Part shown: piece after piece, positions 5,279-14,694 of the stretch | How positions within the stretch are numbered: the first letter of the stretch is position 1 | Layout: every line of letters starts with the position of its first letter | NCBI RefSeq assembly: GCF_028463845.1 | Contig: NZ_CP116805.1 | Location: forward strand, 3,034,001 to 3,098,000 | Source of the DNA: Gimibacter soli | GTDB lineage: Bacteria > Pseudomonadota > Alphaproteobacteria > Sphingomonadales > Kordiimonadaceae | Length of the DNA: 64,000 bases | Direction of reading: 5' to 3' | Translations under genes and position numbers: made by a program | Notes under the pieces: model-generated | The model's input: only the letters and a program-made list of their open reading frames with translations | The model's database searches: none | What the model was told of the DNA's origin: nothing

Positions 5279-6169
5279 TCAGCGACCGAGTGCAGTGGTG
5301 CGCGCGTCGGCATATTCAGCCTTGGCATGCTCCACCCACTTGGCGAAATCTTCTTTGGTCATAACCTCGACCACGATCGGCATGAACGCATGGTCCTTGC
5401 CGCACAGCTCCGAGCACTGACCGTAGTAGGTGCCGGGCTTGTCAGCTTCGAACCAGGTTTCGTTCAGGCGGCCGGGAACGGCGTCAAGCTTCACACCGAA
5501 GGCCGGAACGGTCCAGGCGTGGATCACATCGGAAGCGGTCAGCTGCACTTTCACCTTGGTGTTTGCCGGCACCACAAGGCGGGTATCGGCATCCAGAAGG
5601 CGGGCATTGAGCGTGGCCGGCTTGCCGAGGAAGCCCGTGAGGGCTGCTTCGTATTCGGCACGCTCGCTGGCGTTCACGAAGGCGCTGTCCGGCACGACAA
5701 CCGAGGTGAACTCGATGCCGTCATGATCCGGGTAGCTGTAGGTCCAGTTCCACTGGTTGCCGGTCACACGGACGGCAAACTCGGTTTCAGGAACCACGTC
5801 TTGATAATAAAGCAGCGGCAGCGAGGTAAAGCCGATCACCACAAGGATCAGGATCGGAACCACAGTCCACACGAACTCGATGATCGTGTTGTGACTGGTT
5901 TTCGAAGGAACCGGGTTGGCCTTGGCGCGGTACCGGAACATCACCCAGAACATCAGCACGAAAACAAAGATGGTGATGACGGTGATGATCCACATCAGCA
6001 TGATGTGGAAGTCGTCGATCCGCTGGGCCTGCTCGTTGGCCGCCGGGATGAGCCAGTGGCCGCCATCGACGGGCATATGCTCTGCGGCATCGGCGAGCGC
6101 CGTGGCTGCGAAGCCGAACGCTGCTGCAACGGCAGCCACGATTCCGGCGAATAGCCTTTTGACGATCAT
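5279..6169 (-). CDS. coxB: Cytochrome c oxidase subunit II
   Basis: A 296-residue protein with a signal-peptide-like first helix, two membrane helices and a periplasmic cupredoxin domain. The binuclear CuA site is visible as CSELCGKDHAFMP, with its upstream histidine in DVIHAWTVPAFGVK. It accepts electrons from cytochrome c and passes them to heme a in subunit I. There is no C-terminal cytochrome c domain. I chose the ATG at 6169 because GAGGAAAG lies just upstream; an ATG nine codons earlier would bury that site inside the coding region. First gene of the oxidase operon; its promoter must lie in 6170-6479, shared with divergent tldD. Confidence 0.97.
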   Translation of the reverse strand: MIVKRLFAGIVAAVAAAFGFAATALADAAEHMPVDGGHWLIPAANEQAQRIDDFHIMLMWIITVITIFVFVLMFWVMFRYRAKANPVPSKTSHNTIIEFVWTVVPILILVVIGFTSLPLLYYQDVVPETEFAVRVTGNQWNWTYSYPDHDGIEFTSVVVPDSAFVNASERAEYEAALTGFLGKPATLNARLLDADTRLVVPANTKVKVQLTASDVIHAWTVPAFGVKLDAVPGRLNETWFEADKPGTYYGQCSELCGKDHAFMPIVVEVMTKEDFAKWVEHAKAEYADARTTALGR

Positions 6170-6479
6170 AGTAAGCTTTCCTCTTTTTCCACCCAATGGG
6201 ACGGGTTTCCGCCATTTCCGGAGTATTTTCCGGCTAAGCGAAATGGCCTGCGCGACACCAAGACCGGTGCCGATAACAGACCTGAATGCGGCGACGTTAT
6301 ACCAGACGATTACGCACGCTCAAGCCTCATCAAGGGCTTGCTGCCATTTTTCTGCCGCAGGGCTTAAAATTCGGCAGCGCTTCTGGCATAGACCCCGAGC
6401 CCACCCCATTATAAGGTGAGAGAAACCGGCTTGTCGCGTGCCAAGGCATCTGCGTCTGCCCAGTAACCGGAGACCCTTC
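6170..6479. other. Divergent intergenic region between coxB and tldD (310 bases)
   Basis: No convincing gene is seen here. It must hold the promoters for the oxidase operon (minus) and tldD (plus). A six-base inverted repeat, CAAGCC...GGCTTG, sits around 6323-6343 and a TATAAG-like block at about 6411. A short minus-strand open frame crosses from tldD and ends in KWQQALDEA at about 6320, but it has no start signal of its own. The tldD ribosome-binding site (GGAGA) ends the region. Confidence 0.6.
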
Positions 6480-7916
6480 ATGGCCGAGACCGCCCCAGCC
6501 CTCGATTTCTTCTTCGCCGAAAACGGCCTCGACGAGGCGCGTACCCTGCAGCTTGTGGACGATGCACTGGCCGGCATGGACGACGGAGAACTGTTTTTCG
6601 AGGCAACACAGGCCGAGTCCTTTTCTTTCGATGATGGCCGCCTGAAGGCCGCAAGTTTCGACAGTGCGCAGGGATTCGGCCTTCGTTCCGTCCTTGGCGA
6701 GTCGACCGGTTATGCGCATTCAACCGATATGAGCGAGGAAGCGATCCGCCGTGCCGCTGAAACCGTGCGCGCGATCCAGACGGGGGCAAGTGGCTCGATG
6801 GCGATTGCGCCTGCGCGGTCGAACAAACGTCTTTACGGTGACCATAACCCGCTTCTCGGCATCGATTTCGCGAAGAAGGTGAAGCTTCTGGAGGAAATCG
6901 ACGCCTTCGCCCGCGCCGCCGATCCGCGCGTAAAGCAGGTTTCCGCCGCCCTTGTCGGCAGCTGGCAGCAGGTGGAGATCATCCGGGCCGGCGGACATCG
7001 GGTGCGCGACATCCGCCCGCTCGTGCGGCTCAATGTCTCGGTCATGATGGCGGACGGCGACCGGCAGGAAACTGGCTATGACGGCGCCGGCGGCCGCCGC
7101 GACTATGATTTCCTTTTCGACGAAAACCAGTGGCAGGCGCAGGTGCATGAGGCAATCCGGCAGGCCAGCGTCAATCTTGAAAGCGTCGATGCGCCCGCAG
7201 GCGAGATGACCGTGGTGCTTGGCCCCGGCTGGCCCGGTGTGCTGCTGCATGAAGCCGTCGGCCACGGGCTTGAGGGCGACTTCAACCGCAAGAAAACCTC
7301 GGCCTTCGCCGGGCTTCTGGGTGAACAGGTTGCTGCCAAGGGCGTAACCGTGGTGGACGATGGCACCATCGAGGCACGCCGTGGGTCGCTTTCGGTCGAC
7401 GACGAAGGCACGCCCACCGAGCGTACCGTGCTGATCGAGGATGGTATTCTGAAAGGCTATATGCAGGACCGGCTGAACGCCCGCTTGATGGGTATGAAGC
7501 CCACCGGCAACGGCCGCCGCCAGGGCTTCTCGCACAGCCCCATGCCGCGCATGACCAACACGTTCATGCTGGCCGGCAACCATGACCCCGCCGAGATCGT
7601 GGCAAGCGTCAAGGACGGTCTTTACGCCGTCAACTTCGGGGGCGGACAGGTGGATATCACGAGCGGCAAGTTCGTCTTCTCCTGCACCGAGGCCTACCGC
7701 GTGCGGAACGGCAAGGTGATGGAGCCGGTAAAGGGCGCCACGCTCATCGGCAACGGGCCGGATGTGCTGAAACGCGTGTCGATGATCGGCAATGACCTGA
7801 AGCTTGATAACGGCGTCGGTATCTGCGGCAAAGCGGGGCAAAGCGTGCCTGCAGGTGTTGGCCAGCCGACGCTGAAGATCGACGGCCTGACCGTCGGCGG
7901 CACGGCTGCGGCCTGA
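6480..7916 (+). CDS. tldD: Metalloprotease TldD
   Basis: A 478-residue member of the TldD/PmbA (modulator of DNA gyrase, peptidase U62) family. The zinc-binding HExxxH motif is visible as HEAVGHGLEGD at about residues 257-267. The family's C-terminal glycine-rich strands are also clear (VNFGGGQVDITSGKFVFSC). TldD works with TldE/PmbA as a heterodimeric protease that degrades unfolded peptides and matures some peptide natural products; the partner gene is not in this window. The start at 6480 has GGAGA seven bases upstream; an in-frame ATG at 6438 is less likely. Divergent from coxB, a frequent arrangement in alphaproteobacteria. Confidence 0.95.
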   Translation: MAETAPALDFFFAENGLDEARTLQLVDDALAGMDDGELFFEATQAESFSFDDGRLKAASFDSAQGFGLRSVLGESTGYAHSTDMSEEAIRRAAETVRAIQTGASGSMAIAPARSNKRLYGDHNPLLGIDFAKKVKLLEEIDAFARAADPRVKQVSAALVGSWQQVEIIRAGGHRVRDIRPLVRLNVSVMMADGDRQETGYDGAGGRRDYDFLFDENQWQAQVHEAIRQASVNLESVDAPAGEMTVVLGPGWPGVLLHEAVGHGLEGDFNRKKTSAFAGLLGEQVAAKGVTVVDDGTIEARRGSLSVDDEGTPTERTVLIEDGILKGYMQDRLNARLMGMKPTGNGRRQGFSHSPMPRMTNTFMLAGNHDPAEIVASVKDGLYAVNFGGGQVDITSGKFVFSCTEAYRVRNGKVMEPVKGATLIGNGPDVLKRVSMIGNDLKLDNGVGICGKAGQSVPAGVGQPTLKIDGLTVGGTAAA

Positions 7917-7935: not shown

Positions 7936-8727
7936 ATGCTCTCCTACCAGCACAGCTATCACGCCGGGAATCTGCCCGACATCCACAAACACGCCGTTCT
8001 GGCCACCTTCCTGAAGGCCATGACCGAAAAGCCCAAGGCCATGACCGTGGTGGAAACCCACGCCGGACGCGGGCTTTATGATCTGGGTGGCATGGAAGCC
8101 CAGAAGACGGGCGAGGCCAGCGAAGGGATCGTGCCGCTTCTGAAAAAGAAGCTGTTGCCTGCCGACCACCCGTTCCTCACCGCCGTTGCCGCCACCCGCA
8201 AGGCGCATGGGGCCAGCGCCTATCCGGGATCGCCGCTGATCGCCCAGCATCTGCTGCGCGAAGGCGATATCCTGCATCTAATGGAACTGCACCCGCAGGA
8301 GCATGCCGCACTGCGTGAAACTGCCCGCGCACCGGGCGTGAATATTCACCGCCGGGACGGCTACGAGGGCGTGCTGTCCGTCTCGCCGCCCACGCCGCGG
8401 CGCGGCCTGGTACTGATTGACCCGAGCTACGAGATCAAAAGCGAATATATGGAAGCAGCTTCCTTCATCAAGGAACTGCATGCCAAATGGCCGGAAGCCA
8501 CCATCCTCCTCTGGTATCCGATCCTGAAGGCGGGCCTGCACGAGCTGATGCTTGATGCACTTGAAGGCACCGACCTGCCGGGCGTCTGGCACGATCAGGT
8601 GTTGTTCAGCGACACGAACCTGCGCATGCTCGGCTCCGGCCTTTTCGCCGTCAACCGGCCCTATGGCATCGACGAGAGCCTTGGGGAAATTTCCGCGGCT
8701 GTTTCCAGACTGGCGGGCAATCCATGA
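7936..8727 (+). CDS. rlmJ: 23S rRNA (adenine-N6)-methyltransferase RlmJ
   Basis: A 263-residue protein opening MLSYQHSYHAGNLPDIHKH, the signature of RlmJ (YhiR), which methylates A2030 of 23S rRNA using S-adenosylmethionine. VVETHAGRGLYDL is the SAM-binding region. The catalytic loop reads LIDPSYE (Asp162), whereas the usual family motif is DPPYE, so one motif proline is replaced by serine. Its stop overlaps the next gene's ATG in an ATGA arrangement. It therefore heads, or is transcribed into, the binding-protein/transferase quartet, with no obvious functional link. Confidence 0.93.
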   Translation: MLSYQHSYHAGNLPDIHKHAVLATFLKAMTEKPKAMTVVETHAGRGLYDLGGMEAQKTGEASEGIVPLLKKKLLPADHPFLTAVAATRKAHGASAYPGSPLIAQHLLREGDILHLMELHPQEHAALRETARAPGVNIHRRDGYEGVLSVSPPTPRRGLVLIDPSYEIKSEYMEAASFIKELHAKWPEATILLWYPILKAGLHELMLDALEGTDLPGVWHDQVLFSDTNLRMLGSGLFAVNRPYGIDESLGEISAAVSRLAGNP

Positions 8728-9470
8728 TCCGTGCCTTTGGCGTTTCGCTTTGTCTGTTGATGAGCGTCGCGGCAAAGGCAGACGATGCGCCGCCCATTGC
8801 CGTGCCCTATTACGAATATCCGCCCAAGATGGTGATCGTGAACGGCGTGCCCACAGGCAGCTATATCGACACATGGAAAGCGATTGCCGAAAGGGCCGGT
8901 GTCCAGCTTGAATGGATGCCCTCATCAATCTCCGAAGAAACCGCCATGCTGGATCGCGGCACCCGGCCCATGTGCAACACCGGGCGGCTGATGACCGAGG
9001 AACGCCGCAAGACATGGGTCTTCCTGCCCTATGTTTATGACTGGCTGGCCGAGGATGTGATCGTCACCAGCCCCGCGTTCAGGCAGCGCATCGCAGCGCA
9101 CCCGCACCTGAGGGACCTTCTGACCGATACGAGCCTGCATCCGACCTTCGTCGGCGGGCTGGCTATCGGTGAAGGCGTTGAAGGCGCGAAGGCCAACCGC
9201 TCGCACTGGCGCGATCTGGATGTGAAATCCGAAGCACAGGCGGTGCGTATGGTGGGGGCGGGCCGCGCCGACTATACATTATCAAACGCCGATCAGTTTG
9301 CCGAAGCCGTCCGGGATGACCCGGCACTTGGCAAGCTTGTGACGTTGCGGCTGCCCGGCATGTATCCGCGCACGCCAGTTTCCATTGCCTGCACGCGCGG
9401 CACACCGCCAGCGCTGATCGAGGCAATCGGCAAGGCAATGCAGGAACTGGGATACGTACCTGCCCCCTGA
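8724..9470 (+). CDS. Periplasmic solute-binding-protein-like protein, copy 1
   Basis: A 248-residue protein with a signal peptide (MIRAFGVSLCLLMSVAAKA, cut near residue 19). The mature domain has the type-3 extracellular solute-binding fold layout: PYYEYPPKMVIVNGVPTGSYID at the start and GAGRADYTLSNADQFAEAV in the second lobe. Two cysteines, Cys84 (MCNTGRL) and Cys223 (IACTRGT), are conserved in the second copy at 12353-13114 and might form a disulfide. ATG overlaps the rlmJ stop. No ABC permease or ATPase gene is nearby, so an amino-acid uptake role is doubtful; the neighbouring LtaS-like enzymes suggest a sensing or accessory role, which is inference. The ligand is unknown. Confidence 0.8.
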   Translation: MIRAFGVSLCLLMSVAAKADDAPPIAVPYYEYPPKMVIVNGVPTGSYIDTWKAIAERAGVQLEWMPSSISEETAMLDRGTRPMCNTGRLMTEERRKTWVFLPYVYDWLAEDVIVTSPAFRQRIAAHPHLRDLLTDTSLHPTFVGGLAIGEGVEGAKANRSHWRDLDVKSEAQAVRMVGAGRADYTLSNADQFAEAVRDDPALGKLVTLRLPGMYPRTPVSIACTRGTPPALIEAIGKAMQELGYVPAP

Positions 9471-9499
9471 CGGGCGAGCGAAGGCGTAAGGGGGGCAGC

Positions 9500-10870
9500 A
9501 TGGCGGAAACACAGGAACAATCAGAAACTGGCATCGATGGCCGCCGCCCGGTCAGCAACCTCACCTACATGCTGGCCAGCATCCTGATCTGCAACCTGCC
9601 CTTCATCGGATTCTATATCATCGGCAGCGCCCCGCGCCTGCCCTTCATCCTGGCCTATACCGTCCTCGCCATCCTTGTTGGTGTGCGGCCCCGTATCCTC
9701 TATCTCCTCGCCTTCTGGGCCATGCTGATTTACGACCTGCTTACAACGGCTGCCGGGGTCTTCTATTTCTCGGTCGAGGAAATCGCGGCGGCGGCCAAGT
9801 TCCTGCCGATGCTGAGCCCGTCCGAAGGTTTTGCCTTCTATCTGCCGTTCGTTGCCATTCTTGTATGCGGCACGCTCGCGACCCTTGGCGCGCTGCGCTA
9901 CCGCCCCGCCAATCCCGTTCGGCTGATCCTGCCGTTCATCGGCCTCACGCTGGCTGTGGGGGCGGTAGAACATCTGAATGTCGCCCTCAGCGGCTATCAC
10001 CTTGGCAAGGCAATGGGACAGGACAAGCCGTTCGAATCCGCCGTGAACGCCTCGGGCTTAGAAGCCCGTGTCGAAGCCCTGCCGAAGGGGCGCAAGGCAC
10101 TTCTGGTGATGGTGGAAAGCTACGGCCTTTATCTTGACCCCGCGATCAGGGCGCAGATTGCTGCCCCCCTTCACGCCCCTGCCTTGCAGGAACGTTTCTC
10201 CATTCGCGAAGGCACCACCACATTCCTTGGCCACACGACCGACGCTGAAATGCGGGAACTCTGCGGCACGTGGGCCGGATACCGCGACATCGGCGCGCCC
10301 GACAGCCTGCCCATCGGCCCCTGTCTGCCCCAGCGACTGGCGGGTGCTGGCATTGAAACAGTCGCCATCCACGGGTTCTGGAGCGCCATGTTCAACCGCG
10401 CCGACTGGTTCCCGAAGATCGGCATCGGTCGCAGCATCTTTTATGAACAGATGAAAGGCTTGGGGCTTGAAGAATGCCGGGGCGTCTTCATCGGCCCGTG
10501 CGACCCTGAAATGCTGGACAGCAGCGTCGTGGACGAACTCACAAGCGGCGACACGAAGCTTGTCTATTTCCTTACGCTCACGAGCCATCTGCCCTTTGTG
10601 GCAACCGATCGCTACGACACACCCTTCCCCTGTGGCACGGACACATCGCCCATCACCGATTACCAGGCCTGCAAGCAGGCGAACTATCTGCACAGCTTCT
10701 TCGTCCATCTGGCCGGCACGCTGGCGCGCGATGACCTGCCGGTCGATACGATCCTGCTGGTCGGCGACCATGTGCCGCCGTTCCTGAAGCGGGACGCCCG
10801 CGCCCTTTTCGATCCCGGCGTCGTGCCATGGGTCGCCTATGACCGGCACGCAGAAAAAAGCGCGAACTGA
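9500..10870 (+). CDS. LtaS-like membrane sulfatase-fold transferase, copy 1
   Basis: A 456-residue protein: five N-terminal membrane helices (about 21-41, 47-64, 66-88, 110-130 and 141-158), then a periplasmic alkaline-phosphatase-superfamily domain. Active-site elements of LtaS/MdoB-type phosphoglycerol and phosphoethanolamine transferases are visible: Glu206 in VESYG, nucleophile candidate Thr246 in GHTTDAE, HGFWSAMFNR (His291, Arg300), LTSHLPF (His363) and GDHVPP (Asp423, His424). It probably moves a phospho-alcohol group from a phospholipid to a periplasmic or envelope acceptor; donor and acceptor are unknown. It starts 29 bases after binding protein 1, behind a GGGGGG run. Clear paralogue of the next gene. 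Confidence 0.82.
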   Translation: MAETQEQSETGIDGRRPVSNLTYMLASILICNLPFIGFYIIGSAPRLPFILAYTVLAILVGVRPRILYLLAFWAMLIYDLLTTAAGVFYFSVEEIAAAAKFLPMLSPSEGFAFYLPFVAILVCGTLATLGALRYRPANPVRLILPFIGLTLAVGAVEHLNVALSGYHLGKAMGQDKPFESAVNASGLEARVEALPKGRKALLVMVESYGLYLDPAIRAQIAAPLHAPALQERFSIREGTTTFLGHTTDAEMRELCGTWAGYRDIGAPDSLPIGPCLPQRLAGAGIETVAIHGFWSAMFNRADWFPKIGIGRSIFYEQMKGLGLEECRGVFIGPCDPEMLDSSVVDELTSGDTKLVYFLTLTSHLPFVATDRYDTPFPCGTDTSPITDYQACKQANYLHSFFVHLAGTLARDDLPVDTILLVGDHVPPFLKRDARALFDPGVVPWVAYDRHAEKSAN

Positions 10871-10958
10871 CTGATTTTATTCAAACATAAAGCGCTTCTT
10901 AACGGTCACGTGTCACGCTGGGCTCAAATCGGCAAAACGGGCGGGGGTCCGGACGGGC

Positions 10959-12356
10959 ATGACTTTAGTTGAGACGCAAAAGGCGGCTGCACAGGCAGAC
11001 AATCGCCGCCCTATCGGCAATTTCGCCTACATTCTGGCCTGTCTGGTGATCTGTAACCTGCCGTTCGTCGGCTTTTACATCATCGGCACCGGATCGCGCG
11101 CCAACTATCTGGCGCTTTATGCACTGATGGGCATCCTCCTCGCCCGCAAGGCAAAGCCTGGCTATGTGGTGCTGTTCTGGCTGATTTTCCTATCGGATAT
11201 CGTCTCGACTGCGGCACGGATCTTTTCCTTCTCGCTTCTCGAGTTCACCGCCGCCTTCCGCTTCATCCCGATGCTGACACCGACGGACGGCCTTGCCTTC
11301 TATGCGCCTTTCGCCCTGCTGTTTGTCGCGGGTATTGCCGTCACATGGGGTATCTATCGCTACCGCCCGGCCACACCTGACAAGCTGACCATGCCCTTTG
11401 CCCTTGTCACGCTCGTCGCCGTTGGGGCCGAGCATTTCGTGGCCTCCGTGCCCGCAGCCAACATCTATGGCCCCGGCGACGCGCCGTTCCAGTCGGCCAT
11501 GATGCAAACAGACTTCGAGGCGCGCACGCTGGCGCTTCCGGAAAATGGCAAGACGCTGCTAATCGTCGCCGAAAGCTACGGCGACTATCTGGACCCCGCC
11601 ATCCGGCAGGCCATCAGTGCGCCGCTGATGTCAGCCCCGGTGACCGCACAGTTCGATGTGCAGGAAGGCACCTCCCGTTTCGCCGGCCACACGCCGCAGG
11701 GCGAACTTCGCGAGCTTTGTGGTCGCTATCTCGATTACGAGGATATCGACGCTGCAGCGAAGGCAGATATGCCCTCCTGCCTGCCCGAACAGGCGAGCGA
11801 AGCCGGCGTTGAGACAGTCGGCATTCATGGCTTTTCCGGGTGGATGTTCGACCGCACCGAATGGTATCCGCTGGTCGGGTTCGACCGCATGGTCTTCGCC
11901 GAAGACCTTCAGAACCAGCAACTCAAGGAATGCAAGGGTATCCTTGTTGGCCTCTGCGATATTCCGCTTCTGGAAACCCGAATCGCCGAGGAACTGCAGG
12001 GGGAAGGACGGAAAATGGTCTATTTCCTGACCCTCACAAGCCACCTGCCCTTCGTCGCTCACGAATATGGCGAGCCGTTTGACTGCGAAGGGGAAGACCG
12101 CGCAATTGCGGATTTCCAGGCCTGCCAGCAAGCCAACTATCTGAACGGCCTGATGGGCCGGGTGGCTGCACTGATCGCAAGTACGGGCCCCGAGCTTGAT
12201 TCGGTGCTGATTGTAGGTGACCATCGCCCGCCTTTCATTAAGCGCGATGCGAAGGAAATGTTCAGGGTCGATACTGTTCCCTATTTCTATCTGACCCGAA
12301 AGCGCAACGACGTCGCCCACGGCGACGTGGCAGAGAATGTGGAGTCCGGTGTATGA
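10959..12356 (+). CDS. LtaS-like membrane sulfatase-fold transferase, copy 2
   Basis: A 465-residue paralogue of the preceding gene, aligning along its whole length: NLPFVGFYIIG in helix 1, Glu205 in AESYGDYLDPAIR, Thr245 in GHTPQGELRELCG, His290/Arg299 in the HGFSGWMFDRTEW block, LTSHLPFVA and GDHRPPFIKRDA. All predicted metal and nucleophile residues are kept, so both copies are probably active. The acceptor-side region between about residues 255 and 285 differs most, which may reflect different substrates (inference). An 88-base gap separates it from copy 1, enough for a promoter, though no clear one is seen. Its stop overlaps the ATG of binding protein 2. Confidence 0.82.
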   Translation: MTLVETQKAAAQADNRRPIGNFAYILACLVICNLPFVGFYIIGTGSRANYLALYALMGILLARKAKPGYVVLFWLIFLSDIVSTAARIFSFSLLEFTAAFRFIPMLTPTDGLAFYAPFALLFVAGIAVTWGIYRYRPATPDKLTMPFALVTLVAVGAEHFVASVPAANIYGPGDAPFQSAMMQTDFEARTLALPENGKTLLIVAESYGDYLDPAIRQAISAPLMSAPVTAQFDVQEGTSRFAGHTPQGELRELCGRYLDYEDIDAAAKADMPSCLPEQASEAGVETVGIHGFSGWMFDRTEWYPLVGFDRMVFAEDLQNQQLKECKGILVGLCDIPLLETRIAEELQGEGRKMVYFLTLTSHLPFVAHEYGEPFDCEGEDRAIADFQACQQANYLNGLMGRVAALIASTGPELDSVLIVGDHRPPFIKRDAKEMFRVDTVPYFYLTRKRNDVAHGDVAENVESGV

Positions 12357-13114
12357 GTAAGGCTTGGGGAAGCCTCGTATCGCTTGTGTTTCTGAGTGCC
12401 CAGATTCTGGCCGCGGACGACAGGCCCGCGATCAACGTGACCTATTACGACTATCCGCCGACCATGAAGATCGTCGATGGCCGTCCGGCCGGCCCCTATG
12501 TGGACCAGATCGTCAGGGTTGCCGAAACCGCCGGCCTCACAATCCATTGGCTGCTGACCACCATCAACACCGAAACAAAGATGTTGGATCAGGGCGTGCG
12601 GCAAATTTGCACAACAGGACGCCTGCACAATGAAGATCGCGCTTCGCGCTGGCTTTATGTGCCCTATGAATGGGATTGGTTGCCCGGTGACATCATCATC
12701 GCCCAGCCCGACAAAGCGACGGCTGTGGCCGAGCATGCCCACATACTCGATCTGTTGCATGATCGTAGCCTGCACCCGATGATGGTGGGCGGCAGCACTT
12801 TTGGAAACGTGATCGACAAGGCTATCAAGTACCGCGACCACTGGATTGCAAACGATGTAGGCTCGGAAATCCAGGTAATCAAGCTGCTGGCCGCGGGCCG
12901 CGCTGATTATACGGTCATTGCCTTCGACCAGTGGGAGGAAGCACTGGCGGCTGACCAGAGCCTTTCGTTCCTTTCCGCCTTGAAGATCGACGGTGTCCTG
13001 CCACCTGCCCCAATATACCTGACCTGCAGCAAGGCGACCGATCCAATGGTCATCACCAAGCTGGGCGAGGCCATGGGCAAGCTCGGCTACAAATACCGAC
13101 CCGACATCCACTGA
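12353..13114 (+). CDS. Periplasmic solute-binding-protein-like protein, copy 2
   Basis: A 253-residue paralogue of the protein at 8724-9470, with a signal peptide ending near ILAADD. Shared blocks include VTYYDYPPTMKIVDGRPAGPY, ETKMLDQGVRQICTTGRL, RSLHPMMVGG, AAGRADYT and the C-terminal LGY. Both conserved cysteines are kept (Cys86, Cys225). The ATG overlaps the stop of the second LtaS-like gene (ATGA). A bidirectional terminator follows immediately, so this closes the operon. The gene order binding protein, transferase, transferase, binding protein is mirror-like, although all four are on the same strand. Function unknown; a ligand-sensing partner of the transferase is one hypothesis. Confidence 0.8.
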   Translation: MSKAWGSLVSLVFLSAQILAADDRPAINVTYYDYPPTMKIVDGRPAGPYVDQIVRVAETAGLTIHWLLTTINTETKMLDQGVRQICTTGRLHNEDRASRWLYVPYEWDWLPGDIIIAQPDKATAVAEHAHILDLLHDRSLHPMMVGGSTFGNVIDKAIKYRDHWIANDVGSEIQVIKLLAAGRADYTVIAFDQWEEALAADQSLSFLSALKIDGVLPPAPIYLTCSKATDPMVITKLGEAMGKLGYKYRPDIH

Positions 13115-13176: not shown

Positions 13177-13809
13177 TCAGCTGACGAGCGTGGCTTCCGT
13201 CTTGGCCTTAACTTCGTCAAGCGTCACGCCGTCGGCAAGCTCGACAACCTTCAGGCCGCCTTTGACCACATCGAACACGCCAAGCCCCGTGATGATGCGG
13301 TCCACAACGGCAGTGCCTGTCAGCGGCAACGTGCAGGTCTTCAGGAGCTTCGACTCGCCCGCCTTGTTGGTGTGATCCATGATCACCACAACGCGCTTCA
13401 CACCGGCCACAAGGTCCATGGCGCCGCCCATGCCCTTCACCATCTTGCCGGGGATCATCCAGTTGGCGAGATCGCCGTTTTCGGCCACTTCCATGGCGCC
13501 GAGGATCGACAGGTCGATATGCCCGCCGCGGATCATGCCGAAGCTGTCGGCCGACGAGAAATAGCTGGTGGTGGCGAGTTCGGTGATCGTCTGCTTGCCG
13601 GCGTTGATGAGGTCAGCGTCTTCCTCGCCCTCATAGGGGAACGGCCCCATGCCGAGCATGCCGTTTTCGGACTGCAACGTCACCTCGATCCCATCCGGGA
13701 TATGGTTTGCTACAAGCGTCGGGATGCCGATGCCGAGGTTCACATAGAAACCGTCTTCGAGTTCACGGGCGGCACGTGCCGCCATCTGGTCGCGGTCCCA
13801 AGCCATCAT
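13177..13809 (-). CDS. scoB: 3-oxoacid CoA-transferase subunit B
   Basis: A 210-residue beta subunit of the SCOT/AtoA family. The catalytic glutamate lies in [13 protein letters not shown], and [19 protein letters not shown] is the conserved N-terminal block. With subunit A it transfers CoA from succinyl-CoA (or another donor) to acetoacetate or a related 3-oxoacid, linking ketone-body and short-chain acid use to acetyl-CoA. Its ATG overlaps the scoA stop (ATGA), so the two subunits are translationally coupled. The exact acid specificity cannot be read from the sequence. Ends at a shared terminator. Confidence 0.94.
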
Positions 13810-14510
13810 GCGGTCTCCTTCTTGCGCACGGTGCGCTGTTCGATGCGCTTCTCGAAGCTGCCCTTGATCAGGCGCTGCACGAAAATGCCGGGGGTGTGGA
13901 TATGATCGGGGTCAAGGCTGCCGGCGGGCACAATCTCCTCGACCTCGGCGACCGTCACCTTGCCGGCAGTTGCCATCATCGGATTGAAGTTCCGCGCCGT
14001 TTTCCGGTACACGAGATTGCCTTCGGTATCGGCTTTCCATGCCTTCACGATGGAAAGGTCGGCCACAAGGCCGGTTTCCATGATGTAGGTTTCGCCGCCG
14101 AAGTCCTTGTGTTCCTTGCCCTCAGCAATCAGGGTGCCCACACCGGTCTTGGTGTAGAAACCGGGAATACCGGCGCCGCCTGCGCGGATGCGTTCGGCAA
14201 GCGTGCCCTGCGGGTTGAACTCAAGCTGCAGTTCGCCCGCCAGATACTGGCGTTCGAATTCCTTGTTCTCGCCCACATAGGACGAGATCATTTTGCGGAT
14301 GCGCTTGGCATCCAGAAGCACACCAAGGCCGAAGCCATCGACGCCGCAGTTATTGGAAATGACCGTGATATCCTTCACGCCGCTTTTGAGAAGCGCCGCG
14401 ATCAGATTCTCCGGGATGCCGCAAAGGCCGAAGCCCCCCGACATGATGGTCATGCCGTCAAACAGCAGGCCTTCCAGCGCTGTTCCGGCATTATCAAACA
14501 CTTTTCTCAT
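13806..14510 (-). CDS. scoA: 3-oxoacid CoA-transferase subunit A
   Basis: A 234-residue alpha subunit with the CoA-transferase family 1 signature [13 protein letters not shown] and the conserved [15 protein letters not shown]. The start is ATG at 14510 (MRKVFDNAG), preceded by GGGGAG at a good distance; the open frame runs 29 codons further upstream but without support. It forms the heteromeric CoA-transferase with scoB. A perfect seven-base inverted repeat at 14565-14582, some 55 bases upstream of the start, is a candidate operator. Confidence 0.94.
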
Positions 14511-14564
14511 GGCCACTCCCCAGGCTTGTTGGCACCGCTGGCGCCAAAATTTCAATGAGCGTTG

Positions 14565-14582
14565 AAAATCGATAACGATTTT
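14565..14582. promoter_or_regulatory. Inverted repeat upstream of scoA (candidate operator)
   Basis: AAAATCG-ATAA-CGATTTT is a perfect inverted repeat with seven-base arms. It lies in the 184-base divergent region between scoAB (minus) and a small membrane protein gene (plus). Its position fits an operator or -35/-10 overlap for scoAB. It could instead be a weak hairpin read on the plus strand, because extra T residues follow the right arm. No regulator gene lies next to it. Confidence 0.45.
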
Positions 14583-14694
14583 TTGCACTGCACGCAAGAC
14601 GGAGTAGCTTTGAATATGCCGTATTTCGGCCTATATTGAAGGCACAAATATAAAAGCCGGATCACATTCCGGCGACAGCGAGCGGAGACCAACC

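Follow-up and report, generated by a model that had tools for sequence, protein, structure and literature searches.

The closest described systems to the enzymes reported here are glycerol-phosphate transferases. LtaS and LtaP appear to provide the nearest solved structures, and among the relatives seen whose role is known, the closest, from the gonococcus, is probably PptB, a pilin phosphoglycerol transferase that adds phosphoglycerol to pilin according to passages of three papers (PMC5383330, PMC3656113 and PMC8445170). We compared with these systems a window of 64,000 nucleotides from Gimibacter soli (contig NZ_CP116805.1, positions 3,034,001 to 3,098,000; the window is the whole stretch analysed), in which four open reading frames (ORFs) on one strand, at 8724-13114, code for two putative transferases (T1 and T2) and two solute-binding protein (SBP)-like products in the order SBP1-T1-T2-SBP2. 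An earlier reading of the letters alone, here called the original prediction, had described this quartet as two paralogous pairs forming one envelope-modification module. The reading that we favour, with a probability of roughly 55%, is that a pair of LtaS-type transferases was added to an older interval carrying orphan SBP genes, and that the SBPs are independent binders and not obligate subunits of the transferases. The four genes are:

8724..9470, + strand: SBP1, 248 amino acids; scores 40.6 bits with PF00497 against a cut-off of 26.4 and is assigned to SBP_bac_3.
9500..10870, + strand: T1, 456 amino acids; putative membrane-anchored LtaS-type transferase; 20.3 bits with Pfam Sulfatase, below the cut-off of 25.
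10959..12356, + strand: T2, 465 amino acids; paralogue of T1; 33.3 bits with Pfam Sulfatase, above the cut-off of 25.
12353..13114, + strand: SBP2, 253 amino acids; paralogue of SBP1; 17.7 bits with PF00497, below the cut-off of 26.4, and classified through its 43% identity to SBP1.

The order and the pairing given by the original prediction were recovered, with T1 and T2 identical at 195 of 456 aligned positions (43%) and SBP1 and SBP2 at 107 of 246 (43%). SBP1 starts 4 nt within the 3' end of the preceding gene, rlmJ, and SBP2 starts 4 nt within the 3' end of T2. The congener Pseudokordiimonas caeni, the only other genome of the genus searched, carries the identical four genes in the identical order, which argues that the arrangement is not due to chance. 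A literature search covering one open-access library turned up no paper on this arrangement. The window genome is a single contig of 3.59 Mb, in which no third member of the T1/T2 family was found at E <= 0.01; a search with SBP2 recovered SBP1 and two weak places elsewhere, and Pfam Sulfatase matched two further strong places that look unrelated.

Both window transferases keep the residues predicted to be catalytic (E206/205, T246/245, HGF, LTSHLPF and GDH), just as the original prediction had stated. In an alignment of 65 rows, picked from 82 T hits plus the window rows after near-duplicates and L116, L084 and L112 had been omitted, E206, T246, W303, H363, D423, H424 and six Cys were invariant in all 65 members. 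The search patterns for T loci lay in or near T246 and H363, and not at E206, D423 or H424, so that the invariance of T246 and H363 is partly built in. We take T246 to be the nucleophile Thr and the conserved Glu, Asp and His to be metal-site residues. Pfam Sulfatase matched 60/65 members at E <= 0.001. A sequence search of the PDB with T1 returned a single chain, Listeria LtaP (E 7.5e-5), and the 65-row profile gave LtaP and LtaS as its top matches; matches of this profile to photosystem I chains, which fell in the membrane part, were taken as chance. NCBIfam names neither window protein, and its LtaS entry NF053595 matches 15 of the 65 members weakly.

The predicted fold points in the same direction. 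The AlphaFold model of T1 (mean predicted local distance difference test, pLDDT, 89.7; predicted template modelling score, pTM, 0.89) shows five long hydrophobic helices before residue 165, and its domain 189-453 matches LtaS, giving the LtaS-type architecture of N-terminal membrane helices followed by a catalytic sulfatase-fold domain. Foldseek ranked LtaP and LtaS top. Among the 50 rows obtained with VIA-align, the leaders were LtaS (2w5q, Z 20.8), LtaP (20.1), the phosphoglycerol transferase GacH (18.4) and 3lxq, all at Z 18-21, followed by sulfatases and EptA/MCR at 14.6-15.7. EptA/MCR and T1 are alike in having a five-helix membrane part and a sulfatase-fold domain, and full-length EptA (5fgn) aligns to residues 14-455 of the model with Z 15.4 over 362 residues and a root-mean-square deviation of 5.2. 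The EptA soluble domain (4kay) reaches Z 15.5, lower than the glycerol-phosphate transferases. LtaS and LtaP, although the best match of the family both by PDB sequence and by fold, are only about 15% identical to T1 and T2, which come from a Gram-negative host and belong to a family with six invariant Cys; Gram-positive LtaS-type enzymes are not known to carry these six Cys. Taken by sequence and model, T1 and T2 are members of an LtaS-type transferase family that is as yet uncharacterised, and the LtaS-like assignment made originally thus holds in kind.

A gonococcal ORF (L010:7320-8777) matches T2 by tblastn with E 9e-20 and 30.9% identity over T2 residues 188-436 (25% over the whole alignment), and agrees with T1 and T2 both in its catalytic residues and in each of the six conserved Cys. 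Of the published pptB primers, the forward one matches this ORF in 18 of its 20 bases, the next best place reaching 14/20; the reverse primer fits at 17/24 in the right orientation, a score that another place ties. The ORF is probably PptB, a name that we infer, as the sequence record carries no annotation. From this relationship, the best guess for the group moved by T1 and T2 is glycerol phosphate. On our preferred reading the two proteins are integral inner-membrane LtaS-type transferases. Most likely they load a phospho-alcohol group, at best guess glycerol phosphate supplied by phosphatidylglycerol, onto the conserved Thr (T246/T245) and then transfer it to an acceptor in the periplasm or at the cell surface, for which a glycan seems likelier than a type IV pilin.

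The family is broad. When genome contigs were scanned with an alignment, 141 T relatives were confirmed, of which 80 loci, from named genomes, were examined and proved to be mostly from Alphaproteobacteria by title; a single-sequence scan of the contigs found no relative. No neighbour was common to T across the 80 loci. The commonest neighbouring cluster was ATP synthase (13/80 loci, one member scanned), a GtrA-type gene precedes T in nine closely related loci and a GT87-type gene lies near T in six (one representative scanned of each); the presence of these two gene types near T in some lineages mildly favours a glycan acceptor. A role of the OpgB/MdoB type on OpgG-type glucans was not supported, since OpgG/MdoG (PF04349) matched in 0/4 genomes, the control having matched E. 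coli only (1/14); other glucan pathways were not searched. In Neoroseomonas soli, the gene after T (L053:6327-9413) codes for a caspase-domain (Peptidase_C14) protein.

The two families are distributed separately. When an SBP-family profile was run on all ORFs of at least 70 amino acids in the 80 T loci (flanks of up to 6 kb, some loci being shorter), the only SBP near a T was in L040, from P. caeni. Across the order to which the window belongs, T occurs in 14/196 genomes and SBP in 17/196; 29 genomes hold at least one of the two families, and only two of them, G. soli and its congener, hold both. In the window's family T was found in 2/29 genomes and SBP in 16/29, some of these genomes being 76-93% complete, and a plasmid collection gave no SBP match. 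The families are thus found apart in most genomes, the very outcome under which the original prediction was to be abandoned. What it had observed was right and its enzyme reading was right in kind; the module is unsupported by the distribution, and there may be a partnership specific to the genus, so that the prediction as a whole is partly supported.

The surroundings of the SBP genes suggest how the quartet arose. Its neighbours in the window are:

6438..7916, + strand: tldD/pmbA-type metallopeptidase gene, identified by Pfam PmbA_TldD domains and synteny; the conserved left marker of the interval.
7936..8727, + strand: rlmJ, identified by Pfam RsmJ/RlmJ; overlaps SBP1 by 4 nt.
13177..14597, - strand: scoB and scoA, CoA-transferase subunits, identified by Pfam CoA_trans in both and synteny; the conserved right marker.

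Regions around nine of 25 SBP places were fetched from relatives. In seven of the nine, belonging to six genomes (G005, G014, G017, G020, G021 and, twice, G022), an SBP lies between tldD and scoBA, and tblastn found no T in those seven regions; the remaining two (L036 and L037) are located elsewhere. G021, like one of the two G022 loci, carries a tandem pair of SBPs without T. G022 carries two versions of the cox-tldD-SBP-scoBA interval (G022:C26 and G022:C79), a doubling that may reflect a mixed assembly. As these relatives carry SBPs without T, the quartet looks like a genus-specific neighbourhood and not like a proven new machine.

Trees bear on the order of events. In the T tree, from which L083 and L117 were omitted as fragments, all four T sequences from the genus fall into a single clade (100/100), which places the T duplication within this lineage. 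A second tandem T pair, with a 4-nt overlap, was seen in an alphaproteobacterial metagenome-assembled genome (L079:4646-5965 and 5962-7302). With SBP1 grouped with SBP2 at a support of 91/88, short of the tree program's star, with the T2 pair not firmly resolved and with tandem SBPs that occur without T, a joint duplication of both families is no more than possible; the SBP-T-T-SBP order, too, differs from the product of a single tandem duplication of an SBP-T pair. Most likely, T was added to an older orphan-SBP locus: one T gene would have entered a tldD-scoBA interval already holding one or two orphan-SBP genes, and would then have been duplicated.

Several points weigh against this account and against the enzyme assignment that goes with it. 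The preservation of the quartet in both genomes of the genus, together with the 4-nt overlap of T2 and SBP2, fits a shared task, and all four genes diverge faster than their surroundings, as partners under one pressure might. The direction of events, insertion of T over repeated loss, is itself deduced. T1 falls under the Pfam Sulfatase cut-off (20.3 versus 25), human and bacterial sulfatases also align to its model at Z about 15-16, the modelled fold likeness leaves donor and acceptor unspecified, and no glycan gene was seen among the direct neighbours of the quartet.

The SBPs themselves would each bind, independently and in the periplasm, an amino-acid-like ligand or another carboxylate, and may feed a signal receptor. 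SBP1 has an N-terminal signal-peptide-like stretch without a lipobox (by eye) and no adjacent transporter genes. The Cys pair pointed out originally is present (84/223 in SBP1, 86/225 in SBP2), and both Cys are invariant in 15/15 aligned SBP relatives, so that the pair is a hallmark of the SBP family rather than of the quartet. The SBP profile gives distant matches to ancestral cyclohexadienyl-dehydratase-type (CDT) and amino-acid binding proteins. Arg94 of SBP1, identical in 15/15, occupies in the alignment the position of the Arg in T-x-E-R, the carboxylate-binding stretch of amino-acid binding proteins; D190 is kept in 9/15 relatives. SBP1 also matches the orphan SBP_bac_3 proteins of TIGR02285 (E 2.2e-8), but is not a member, since its 33.7 bits fall short of the cut-off of 143.3, and SBP2 has no match listed. 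The structure model of SBP2 had a mean pLDDT of 52.6 and was not used.

The SBPs were rejected as components of an ABC importer for amino acids. As originally noted, there is no permease gene among the direct neighbours of the quartet, and the TIGR01726 polar amino-acid permease matched in 0/4 genomes (G000, the window genome; G001, taken to be P. caeni; and the relatives G014 and G022; the control matched 11/14), which makes transport by that importer class unlikely. The window genome holds nine PF00497 (SBP_bac_3) places despite having no such permease detected. Signalling is the likelier role. One rival explanation builds on it: a ligand-loaded SBP would dock on a membrane receptor, such as a chemoreceptor, a kinase or a cyclic-di-GMP enzyme, with the transferases merely on a shared transcript. 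In G022, a Protoglobin-GGDEF gene (L032:8690-9871, Pfam scan) lies 25 nt downstream of an SBP, and a look-alike (L033:6813-8078, read by eye and not by Pfam scan) follows the SBP at a second locus. This places a heme-type diguanylate cyclase beside an orphan SBP. SBP-driven receptors, including cyclic-di-GMP enzymes, are described in passages of PMC9602780, and passages of PMC8846402 name SBP_bac_3 in RmcA. The Protoglobin-GGDEF gene next to an SBP comes from a single genome, however, and Pfam gives it no periplasmic domain; we consider this explanation less likely than not.

A true module, in which each SBP binds an acceptor or signal and gates the neighbouring transferase (SBP1-T1 and SBP2-T2), would account for the identical order in both genomes of the genus, for the 4-nt overlap of T2 and SBP2, for the missing amino-acid permease and for the divergence of the quartet. 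This divergence was unexpected: all four genes diverge faster than their neighbours. Flanking genes in the neighbourhood of the quartet are 93.5-99.5% identical to those of the congener (best row per gene), with synonymous divergence (dS, simple count) of 0.10-0.60 in tldD, rlmJ, scoB, coxA and ppa, whereas the quartet (congener locus L011) shows 81.5% for SBP1, 84.2% for T1, 48.8% (48-49%) for T2 and 87.6% for SBP2, with dS of 0.83 in both SBP genes, 0.65 in T1 and 1.60 in T2. The T2 slot is the most divergent, nucleotide identity dropping to 49-64% over 10901-12300 and recovering in SBP2. With SBP1, T1 and SBP2 at 81-88% and T2 at 48-49%, T2 and SBP2 did not change together, and the only genomes with both families, 2 of the 29 with either, are congeners. 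We consider such a module unlikely.

The dS between T1 and T2 within the window is also 1.60, equal to that between the two T2 genes, which would date the T2 slots roughly to the duplication itself, unless one of them was replaced. The P. caeni T2, over its whole length, is 53.5% identical to window T1 and 48.8% to window T2. Its replacement by a copy nearer T1 was not upheld, because the membrane part pairs T2 with T2 (95/87); support for this pairing is weak in the full T tree (67/37), and the approximately unbiased test on the catalytic part is compatible with either grouping (p-AU 0.383 and 0.466). A bolder proposal, which we find doubtful and a shade less plausible still than the module, is that in this genus an orphan SBP pair was recruited to control the T pair: the SBPs would sense a ligand in the periplasm and toggle or direct the transferases accordingly, and the T2 slot would act as a cassette open to exchange, with phage or predator pressure driving the swapping of its specificity between species.

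That T1 and T2 modify pilins, as the probable gonococcal PptB does, is the least probable explanation. The window genome yielded no type IVa pilus: PilT gave a place above its cut-off in 0/4 genomes, G. soli and P. caeni included (the search did not extend to Flp/Tad pilins, and one weak ATPase match lies at 959428-960279 of G. soli). The four pilin-like genes of G. soli sit together behind an ATPase of type II secretion that passes its cut-off; three of them were scanned, with GspG and GspJ above their cut-offs and GspH best but below its cut-off.

Our preferred reading remains the addition of an LtaS-type T pair to an older orphan-SBP interval. A gene order conserved in one genus resembled a module, and the wider distribution separates the SBP and T families. 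A broad, mostly alphaproteobacterial LtaS-type family is placed near a characterised phosphoglycerol transferase, which makes envelope phospho-decoration directly testable, and a fast-diverging quartet within a neighbourhood that is 93-99% identical offers a lead on surface variation.

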